Origin: an uncultured Chlorobiaceae bacterium
Lineage (GTDB): Bacteria; Bacteroidota; Chlorobiia; Chlorobiales; Chlorobiaceae
Direction of reading: 5' to 3'
DNA: 64,000 nucleotides
Assembly (NCBI GenBank): GCA_903940125.1
Contig: CAJAJL010000067.1
Location: 1 to 64,000 of the forward strand
Position numbers and translations under genes: made by a program. The notes under the pieces are model-generated. The model worked only from the letters and a program-made list of their open reading frames with translations, was not told where the DNA came from and did no database searches. Positions 7,533 through 44,823 of this stretch are shown one piece after another (the stretch's first letter is position 1; the number at the start of each line of letters is the position of its first letter).

Positions 7533-7550
7533 TTTCATTACAATGAATTA

Positions 7551-7586
7551 AAAACATCAGCATCTTAACGGATGCTGATGTTTTTT
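7551..7586 (+). terminator. Rho-independent terminator of atpDC
   Basis: AAAACATCAGCATC (7551-7564) pairs with GATGCTGATGTTTT (7571-7584), a 14-bp stem with a 6-base loop, and the T run continues to 7586. The next gene starts only 6 bases later, so this hairpin also forms that gene's leader. Confidence 0.9.
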
Positions 7587-33934: not shown

Positions 33935-34403
33935 TGATGGCATCACTTTTCGCTCGAATAGAAATAATTCAGCCAATATATAAAATGGGGTATTGATTAT
34001 CTAACGATCTCCATCAGGCATATAAGCACCATCTGTACTTACCCGTGGACATCCTTTGCAGCTGATATTTCACCTGAGCACAGAGCCAAATCAGGTAAAT
34101 AAGCGATTTGATGTCTTTGTAAAAAGCACGCTGAAGCGAAATACGATGAACAAGAAAACTTGCTTTGGTCATAGCGTTGGATCCCAACCTGGCAGAAAGG
34201 GCTGGGCGGACAGGCCATAATCCGCAAAGCATATCTTTAAAAAAGAACATGTATTATTATATATCATTGTTATTCCAACAGAGACAGTAAGATATTACTT
34301 TTATATTACACTTTCCCTCCATTTATTATAATATTTATACATGAAGGGCATAAAAGACATTTATTAGTATCTTCGGGACATAAATTATTAAGTCATTGAT
34401 AAA
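33935..34403. other. Intergenic region between secD and the first parS site
   Basis: About 470 bases carrying the secD promoter region and the upstream region of mnmG. The minus strand contains a 78-codon ORF at 34014-34250 (MFFFKDMLCG... ending ...YRWCLYA). It is basic and has no recognisable domain or strong RBS. It could be a small lineage-specific gene or chance. The stretch 34250-34400 is very AT rich. Confidence 0.4.
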
Positions 34404-42964: not shown

Positions 42965-44374
42965 TTACATGGAACTGATCTCAATCCTTTTTTTGATCTC
43001 CTCAATTCTTTTTCGGTCTTCTGTAACTGATTCCACGCGTTTTGCTATCGTGTTGACGGCATGGATAACTGTGGAGTGGTCTCTTCCTCCGAAATGAAGT
43101 CCTATTGTTTTCAATGAGGATTCAGTAAGATGTTTTGCAAGATACATGGCGATCTGACGACCAACAGCAATTTCCTTTTTTTTAGATTTTCCTTTCAAGT
43201 CATTAGGAGTAATTGAAAGGTAAGAACAGACTGATTTTTCGATAGTGTCAAGCGTCAAACGTTTTGTTGTATGACGGATGATGTCTTTAAGGGTAGTTTT
43301 TGTAAAGTCAAGATCAATTTCCTTGTTGTCAAGCGATTGTGCGGCAAGAAGTTTTACGATGCACCCCTCAAGTTCTCGCACATTCTCAGTGATATTGGTA
43401 GCTATAAATTCTATAACAGTTTCGTCAAGATTAACGCCGCTTTGGTGTAACTTACTAAGAATAATAGCTTTACGTGTCTCGTAATCGGGAGGTTGGATAT
43501 CTGCGGACAGTCCCCAGTTAAAGCGTGATATCAGTCGATCTTCTATTCCTTTTATCTCTTTTATAGGCCTGTCAGCAGAGAGTATAATTTGTTTGTTGGA
43601 TTGATGCAACGTGTTGAAAATATGAAATATTTCCTCCTGCGTTTTTTCTTTGCCTGAAAAGAACTGGATATCGTCGATAATGAGGACGTCAATAGAGCGG
43701 TAGAAAGAGGAGAATTCCTGGATTTTACCGTTCTGAATTGCGTTGACAAAGTCGATAGCAAATTTTTCACTTGAAACATAAAGCACTCTTTCCGAAAGTC
43801 TGTTTTCCCTGACGCTATTACCGATAGCCTGCATCATATGGGTTTTGCCAAGTCCCACGCCGCCATAAATAACAAGCGGATTAAAGGCATTCTGTCCCGG
43901 ACTCTGGGCTACTGATTTCGATGCCGCAAAAGCGAGAGAGTTGCAGTCGCCTCTGATGAGGGTATCAAACGTATATTTGATGTTGAGATGGGTTTCAAAG
44001 CGGGCAAGGTTGCGTTCAAAGTCTTCAGTAAGTTTTGAGCGGGCAGCAGCAGGAATGCCTGATGAGGTAAAATCACCATTCATGGAGTTTTGATGCGGTA
44101 ACTCTATTGTTACCGGTTGGCCTTGTGATTTATCCATGACAATTGAATACATCAGCCTTGCTTCGGGACCAATCACGTTTTTAAGGGCTTCTTTTAAAAA
44201 AGAAGAGTAATTTTCTTCAATCCACTCGTAAAAAAACTGGCTTGGAACTTCAATAGTCAATTCACTGCCTGAAAAGCTGAGAGGTTTGATTGGAAAAAAC
44301 CAGGTTTTAAACGCAAGAGGGTTTATTTTTTCTCTGATAGCATTAAGACATGCGTCCCAGACTTGCTGTGACAT
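42965..44374 (-). CDS. dnaA: Chromosomal replication initiator DnaA
   Basis: The product is about 469 residues from [10 protein letters not shown]. Domain I ([24 protein letters not shown]) is followed by a linker and then the AAA+ domain, with Walker [16 protein letters not shown] at about residue 168 and Walker [20 protein letters not shown]. Domain IV ends with the DnaA signature [18 protein letters not shown] at about residue 427. It binds DnaA boxes and opens oriC. The frame extends 22 codons upstream to 44440, but an AAAGGGAG ribosome-binding site ends six bases before the Met at 44374, which decides the start. It is first in the leftward dnaA-dnaN-recF-dciA group. Confidence 0.97.
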
Positions 44375-44460
44375 TGAGCTCCCTTTCTGTGTCATTGTCT
44401 GCGGATAATCCGGAAACACTTTTGGTGTAACTTCGAGCATAAAAGAAAGGTATTTGAGAG

Positions 44461-44760
44461 GTGTAAGTCAGGATTGTCGAATCTATCAACATTTACTGTT
44501 CACAAGTTAGTGTTTTAAGTGGATAAAAAACAATTTCGTTTATGAAAATGCTTTCCTATGGAGGCGTGTGCGCAGGCAGGGTTTTCAACAGGTTAACGTT
44601 TTGTTTTTATATCCATTAACGGGTCTGTACGGAAAATTTGTCAACATGTGTTGATTCTTTTGACTGCAGCGTTTCCGCTGTGTGCGGGATGGTTGAGAAA
44701 TTTTATCCACAAGTTGTCAACACTGTTGACAACTTGTGGCACTGATATTTTTTTTACGAC
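44461..44760. other. Probable replication origin (oriC) region
   Basis: The dnaA-rpmH gap is noncoding and transcribed away from on both sides. It holds a consensus DnaA box TTATCCACA (44703-44711), a one-mismatch box on the minus strand (TTATCCACT, 44526-44518), and a TCAACA/TGTTGA hairpin at 44641-44654. It also holds a perfect 33-bp palindrome at 44707-44739 and adjoining AT-rich stretches. dnaA, dnaN, recF, gyrB, parS, mnmG, rpmH, rnpA and yidC nearby fit a bacterial origin. The exact unwinding element is not established. Confidence 0.65.
44707..44739. repeat. Perfect 33-bp palindrome overlapping a DnaA box
   Basis: CCACAAGTTGTCAACA (44707-44722) and TGTTGACAACTTGTGG (44724-44739) are exact reverse complements around a single C. 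The left arm shares five bases with the consensus DnaA box at 44703-44711. It may be a regulator or initiator binding site. Confidence 0.95.
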
Positions 44761-44823
44761 ATAAGGTGCTTTTTTTTGTATAGAAAGGATCGGATTTTGT
44801 GGTAAATATCCTGGAGGTAATTG

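Follow-up and report, generated by a model that had tools for sequence, protein, structure and literature searches.

The perfect 33-bp palindrome found at 44707–44739 of the window (the whole stretch of 64,000 nt from an uncultured Chlorobiaceae bacterium that was analysed here) is very probably the core of a predicted DnaA-binding array belonging to the chromosomal origin. It reads CCACAAGTTGTCAACA-C-TGTTGACAACTTGTGG, with 16 of 16 arm pairs complementary around a centre of 1 nt, and was correctly located and described in an earlier sequence-only reading, which also noticed that the left arm shares bases with a DnaA box, TTATCCACA, at 44703–44711. That reading took the palindrome to be fused to the box; however, the palindrome itself consists of three predicted boxes and a half-box that form one array (TTATCCACA-AG-TTGTCAACA-C-TGTTGACAA-CT-TGTGG, 44703–44739), and its inner arms are DnaA-box variants, a point absent from the earlier account. 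Box 1 (TTATCCACA, 44703–44711) and box 2 (TTGTCAACA, 44714–44722) lie on the plus strand in an 11-bp register with a 2-nt gap, box 3 (again TTGTCAACA, read on the minus strand at 44724–44732) stands head-to-head with box 2 at a distance of 1 nt, and half-box 4 (TGTGG, 44735–44739, minus strand) mirrors box 1 without its ATAA. These calls use what we take to be the DnaA-box consensus and its variants, in which position 3 may be A or G and position 6 may be A or C. The proposal that the palindrome binds an origin regulator can be kept provided that the regulator is DnaA itself, on boxes predicted from the letters. The palindrome, as the product of boxes 1–4, would owe its perfect symmetry mostly to a coincidence of the permitted A/C and A/G letters; the array is an origin DnaA-box array of a known kind whose head-to-head spacing is unusual and is kept in much of one family.

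A search of the whole window for perfect inverted repeats (arm of at least 11 nt, loop of at most 10 nt) found three loci, at 2925–2965, 7550–7585 and 44707–44739. Twenty first-order Markov resamplings of the window yielded a single perfect inverted repeat in total, with an arm of 11 nt and none longer, which bears out the earlier opinion that the palindrome is unlikely by chance. The other two repeats, at 2925–2965 and 7550–7585, each end in a T run and resemble ordinary intrinsic terminators.

The array lies between two divergent genes, dnaA on the minus strand (42965–44440, 491 aa from the upstream ATG; NCBIfam TIGR00362, 535 bits; Pfam Bac_DnaA, Bac_DnaA_C and DnaA_N) and rpmH on the plus strand (ribosomal protein L34, 44905–45066; NCBIfam TIGR01030, 80 bits); dnaN and recF lie on the far side of dnaA, and yidD on that of rpmH. 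Several DnaA boxes are thus found in the intergenic region adjoining dnaA, as in the box arrays of oriC. The start of dnaA is uncertain within 44374–44440; the ATG at 44440 is common to many relatives, and the upstream extension has diverged in others (L036, L038, L044 and L045 among them), in which only the later start region is conserved. Among named records, the best match by DnaA (94%) is L221, a metagenome-assembled genome of the Chlorobiaceae.

GC skew had been proposed as a check on the position of the origin and, at chromosome scale in a relative, supports an origin here. The genome of the window consists of 129 contigs, and skew was sampled in a closed genome of the same genus (G025) as 40 stretches of 20 kb covering about one third of the chromosome. 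It was positive in 17 of 19 stretches between 60 kb and 1.14 Mb and negative in 20 of 20 from 1.2 Mb to the end, the first 20 kb being near zero, and dnaA lies at the chromosome end where the sign changes, so that the pattern fits an origin here to the resolution of the sampling, about 60 kb per step. Within the window, on the other hand, the skew minimum is broad and falls at 34,092, 10.6 kb from the array, which alone is not decisive.

Conservation was followed through 86 genomes of the family, 82 of which had a dnaA match, and 77 dnaA–rpmH gaps were analysed, including that of the window (left out were G003, G049, G057 and G076 without a dnaA match, G015, G024 and G072 with partial or poor matches, and G073 and G002, whose stretches, L010 and L081, lacked the rpmH side). 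The tandem pair formed by boxes 1 and 2 matched at 18 of 18 informative positions in 62 of the 77 gaps and at 15 or more in all 77, whereas only two of 231 Markov controls reached 15 and none went higher (printed scores count two free positions on top of the 18 informative ones). The best tandem pair of three of these gaps (L071–L073) has a TT or TC spacer, stands some 145 nt from rpmH and may represent another array. The inverted box 3 (at least 8 of 9 positions) was present at a spacing of 1 nt in 48 of the 77 gaps and once at 12 nt, with no instance at a spacing of 0 or 2–11 nt in any of the 77; it was degenerate or absent in 29, so that some members of the family can do without it. For half-box 4, a TTG at 44734–44736 or the equivalent place was found in 35 of 77 gaps. 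The perfect 33-mer is confined to three of them, those of the window, L026 and L046, so that conservation of the palindrome in its perfect form was rejected; in L004 and L005, which are closely related, 15 of the 16 arm pairs are kept. Comparison with relatives, the other check proposed earlier, thus gave two results, since the perfect form is missing from most gaps and the array of boxes is conserved in its place: what the family maintains is the array and not the symmetry.

Genome-wide, a strict three-box pattern matched once in each of 31 of the 86 family genomes and nowhere else in those genomes, and comparison of coordinates placed all 31 matches just upstream of dnaA; the reversed pattern had no match in the 86 genomes. 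Together with the Markov controls, this rejects chance for the array. With up to two mismatches, the pattern was found in 58 of 98 genomes of the order, and five of the relaxed matches lay away from the origin (in G002, G025, G026, G030 and G090). When exact boxes in the dnaA–rpmH regions are taken in pairs, three spacings stand out: 11 bp between direct boxes, seen in 62 regions, and, between convergent boxes, 10 bp in 32 regions and 21 bp in 36. The next in frequency were seen in 7 regions. Outside the family, a tandem pair with a 2-bp gap (at least 16 of 18) was counted without a control near dnaA in 13 of 20 stretches; the remaining seven had none, two of them being only 300–500 bases long. 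No 1-nt mirror was visible in the flanks listed for these out-of-family stretches, and in one of them (L130) an inverted box scoring 8 of 9 follows the second box after 4 nt.

Five further blocks stand at near-fixed distances to the left of the array in 58–71 of the 77 gaps. Block A1 (CTATCAACA, 44483–44491) and block A2 (TGTTCACAAG) are DnaA-box-like sequences that together occupy 44483–44506 on the plus strand; counted from the array start, A1 is found at -220 ± 2 nt in 71 gaps (exactly in 49) and A2 at -206 ± 2 nt in 67 (46 exactly). Block A3 (GTGGATAAAAAACAATTTC, 44519–44537, minus strand) combines a reverse box-like TTATCCAC with an A-rich stretch and is a candidate unwinding element; it matches at 19 of 19 positions in 40 of the 77 gaps and stands at -184 ± 2 nt in 64. 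Block B is a box variant (TTTTCAACA, 44582–44590, plus strand) found at -121 ± 2 nt in 69 of the gaps, in 52 of them exactly. Block C (44638–44657) comprises TTGTCAACA, 2 nt and TGTTGATTC, a second and weaker head-to-head box pair, at -68 in 46 gaps and -69 in 12 (58 within 2 nt), the other 19 showing more than 3 mismatches. In gaps outside the 2-nt range, A2, A3 and C had more than 3 mismatches, and the short A1 and B motifs were matched elsewhere. The block C pair, 65 bp to the left of the array, is conserved and has a 2-nt gap and a degenerate right box. All these blocks recur in two separate alignments, one of 45 gaps with more than 185 nt between array and rpmH and one of 25 with 140–165 nt (a split by distance and not by genus code). 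Surroundings rich in A+T were found at -200 to -180 and -120 to -100 in the far group and at -120 to -110 in the near group. In the window, the 30-mer of lowest stability in the listed profile begins at 44508, and the candidate unwinding elements are 44519–44537 and 44745–44780. What had been noticed as an odd palindrome becomes in this way a defined, family-wide origin architecture with near-fixed spacing.

From the sequence, spacing, conservation and origin context described above, we infer how DnaA binding, cooperativity, unwinding and the direction of assembly might proceed. ATP-DnaA would load cooperatively on the direct boxes 1 and 2, phased by 11 bp, and box 3 and half-box 4, both inverted, would engage DnaA from the opposite side. 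The array and blocks A–C would then jointly form an oligomer that opens an AT-rich stretch and recruits the helicase. Several observations count against this model, namely the 1-bp inverted gap, the 29 of 77 gaps with a poor or missing box 3, the lack of a DnaA-trio, the covariation of the outer arms described below and the skew minimum at 34.1 kb. The 640 bp preceding rpmH were scanned in a simplified way (not with the published program) for DnaA-trios, defined after PMC8287927 and required to lie within 16 nt 3' of a box; none was found beside any box.

Comparison with known origins points to both familiar and unfamiliar features. In E. coli oriC, the sites within an array are spaced 2 bp apart. 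This origin contains oppositely oriented arrays of low-affinity DnaA sites (Rozgaja 2011, as described in PMC4285127) and so resembles the present one in having opposed box arrays inside the origin; unlike it, the Chlorobiaceae array has two consensus-like direct boxes and an inverted box at a 1-nt gap, with no R2-like box between. According to PMC10316083, the oriC of Thermotoga maritima has direct boxes 2 bp apart and an inverted box, and the optimal gap for dimerisation of its DnaA is 2 bp between direct boxes and 4 bp between inverted ones. The direct pair in the window fits this optimum because of its 2-bp gap, whereas the inverted spacing of 1 bp does not and constitutes the unusual feature; nor were the three TAG repeats of T. 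maritima seen by eye in the window gap. The 1-bp head-to-head arrangement offers a natural test of inverted DnaA-box cooperation. Tandem boxes no more than 3 bp apart also recall the basal unwinding systems (BUS) of the B. subtilis type, as outlined in PMC8287927, the difference being that the simplified scan found no trio in the window gap. A predicted Melioribacter oriC with its DnaA sites is mentioned in the legend to a supplementary figure of PMC3534657. Among the matches listed in the open-access literature no paper on Chlorobium origin boxes was found, most subscription papers lying outside the scope of that search.

The palindrome may alternatively act as a hairpin or cruciform, each strand folding on origin opening into a stem that carries a duplex DnaA box and aids helicase loading. 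This was raised in part by the sequence-only reading and is to be regarded as improbable. Folding itself is possible, since the DNA fold at the palindrome has an energy of -16.3 kcal/mol (z -6.6) and is stable on either strand; nevertheless, the inner arms do not covary, and a fully paired stem is consequently not what the family conserves. In the 45 rows whose boxes 1–3 each scored 8 of 9 or better, one variable inner pair was matched 23 times against 25.5 expected and the other 16 times against 21.3 expected, and Pagel tests on the DnaA tree gave p 0.16 and 0.78; inner position 6 was mismatched in 40 of 69 rows. A fully paired hairpin under selection was rejected on these grounds. The outer pair behaves differently, being matched 31 times against 19.8 expected (Pagel LR 19.5, p 0.0006 given the half-box and p 0.02 unconditioned), and the C/A–G/T letters agree in 28 of 32 half-box rows (3 of the 35 carry other letters and were left out). 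The spacer pair was matched 34 times against 28.4 expected, and in the 35 half-box rows it was G-C in 24, C-G in 3, T-A in 1, A-T in 1 and unpaired in 6, yet its likelihood-ratio test gave p 0.15. The outer-pair test was moreover post hoc and one of five. Independent-pair contrasts for the outer pair ran in the expected direction in a mean of 4.2 of 5 pairs, with none opposed and a median p of 0.125, a test that cannot reach 0.05 with only five pairs. The outer arms therefore covary weakly, in a manner not explained by independent DnaA boxes, and this unexplained post hoc signal keeps the hairpin alive at a low probability. The comparable A-site hairpin of the ABC primosome is a stem with a duplex DnaA box; here the fold is possible, but the inner pairing is not conserved.

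Still less probable is a regulatory site for transcription of dnaA or rpmH (DnaA autoregulation) in place of a replication element. The divergent intergenic position would suit such a site, and one promoter-like match on the minus strand overlaps the array (44729–44700); however, matches of this kind are at the level of shuffled sequence (1 found, mean 1.1), and a promoter overlapping the array was rejected. The array also lies about 260 bp from the dnaA start with its spacing to blocks A–C kept, and similar pairs occur in a gap between convergent genes (lpxC–pgsA, see below). Transcription control could nonetheless be an added role beside replication, the two not being exclusive. The bidirectional intrinsic terminator suggested by the sequence-only reading, to which the long and perfect stem would lend itself, can be dismissed almost entirely, since no T tract lies within 0–2 nt on either side, a terminator scan returned 0 sites, the flanking genes diverge and are transcribed away from the array, and the conserved features are DnaA boxes. 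The remark that T runs are lacking was accurate only for the immediate flanks, as a T8 run (TTTTTTTT, 44748–44755, plus strand) does occur 8 nt beyond the right arm, too distant to serve an intrinsic terminator. A T-rich stretch at this place is partly conserved in the far alignment of 45 gaps and not in the near alignment of 25.

With the palindrome taken as the core of a predicted DnaA-box array at the origin, its tandem unit can be followed to other chromosomal places. A reduced pair pattern (TCMACA-RS-TTRTCMACA) gave 178 matches in the 86 genomes, with at least one in 84 and at least two in 64, and its control pattern gave none in the same genomes. The strict form is matched three times in all in the genome of the window, at the origin, at C8:109934 and at C34:1930. 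In the scores that follow, the maximum is 20 including two free positions, the better strand is taken, and g1 and g2 are genus codes of family genomes, which we take to stand for Chlorobium and for genomes of the Chlorobaculum type. The first extra-origin pair (G000:C8:109934–109950 in the window's own genome, stretches L257 and L289; L227–L276) lies just downstream of a gene of the DedA/VTT family (Pfam PF09335). Fifty of the 84 genomes with this gene were sampled (the 30 best matches and 20 chosen), and the pair scored 17–19 in 37 of 37 g1 genomes against 12–16 in Markov controls, whereas it was found in 0 of 13 g2 genomes (scores of 12–14, within the controls). A tRNA-Pro is near the locus in eight of the nine cases checked, two of the nine being g2 loci without the pair.

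The second pair lies between genes which we take to be lpxC and pgsA (G000:C34:1930–1946 in the window's own genome, stretches L302 and L337; L277, L338–L366 and L380–L385), and these converge in L302. Downstream of lpxC it scored 17–20 in 30 of 31 loci, with 2 of 155 controls reaching 17, and 19 in five of six further loci, being absent in G025; L277 had entered the scoring set as a prior pattern match. The third site is a tandem and sometimes triple run upstream of a gene judged by eye to be kdsC-like, adjoining what is presumably ppa (L278–L281, L290, L295, L307–L336, L367–L379 and L386). Scores of 18–20 were obtained in 10 of 30 g1 loci, the controls going up to 16, and in five of six g2 loci, all six of them prior pattern matches. 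Another 14 stretches (13 from g2 and one from the window's own genome) scored 18–19 and L279, taken over its full length, scored 17, all without a control; 11 of the 13 g2 stretches came from genomes with a known pattern match at this place (the exceptions being G014 and G017). In 17 of 21 g2 genomes, coordinates compared by hand put a strict match no more than about 300 nt from the kdsC-like gene.

The surroundings of these distant pairs differ in the third box. Among the 29 kdsC-like loci with scores of at least 18, 13 have a direct third box (at least 7 of 9) at 11 bp, which all lpxC loci lack; an inverted one (at least 8 of 9) at 1 nt occurs in one of the 67 loci of the first lpxC and kdsC-like scoring set (L354). 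It is conceivable, and is put forward tentatively, that one rare tandem unit serves in two syntaxes. At the origin, where an inverted third box accompanies it, it would initiate replication; at dedA/tRNA-Pro, lpxC–pgsA and kdsC-like/ppa, where the third box is direct or missing, it would tune free or ATP-bound DnaA in the manner of datA/DARS. The rule is not clean, given that the dedA sites of G025, G026 and G030 carry inverted boxes and that 29 of 77 origins have no good inverted box. As conserved clusters of predicted DnaA boxes outside oriC, the pairs share that feature with datA, DARS and DBC; they would resemble in kind datA, DARS1 and DARS2 of E. coli and the B. subtilis clusters, which according to PMC5295017 are DnaA boxes at non-origin places, and may possibly be DnaA-control loci. 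The loci and the make-up of the boxes differ from those described there. No paper on extra-origin pair loci in green sulfur bacteria was among the matches listed in the open-access literature, and the distant pairs supply concrete coordinates that bear on initiation control in this group. One order-level relative (G090) also has a three-box match with a single mismatch far from dnaA (C1:1004228; 2028–2057 of L226). About 530 bp downstream of this match lies a gene that, by eye, we take to be dnaN-like.
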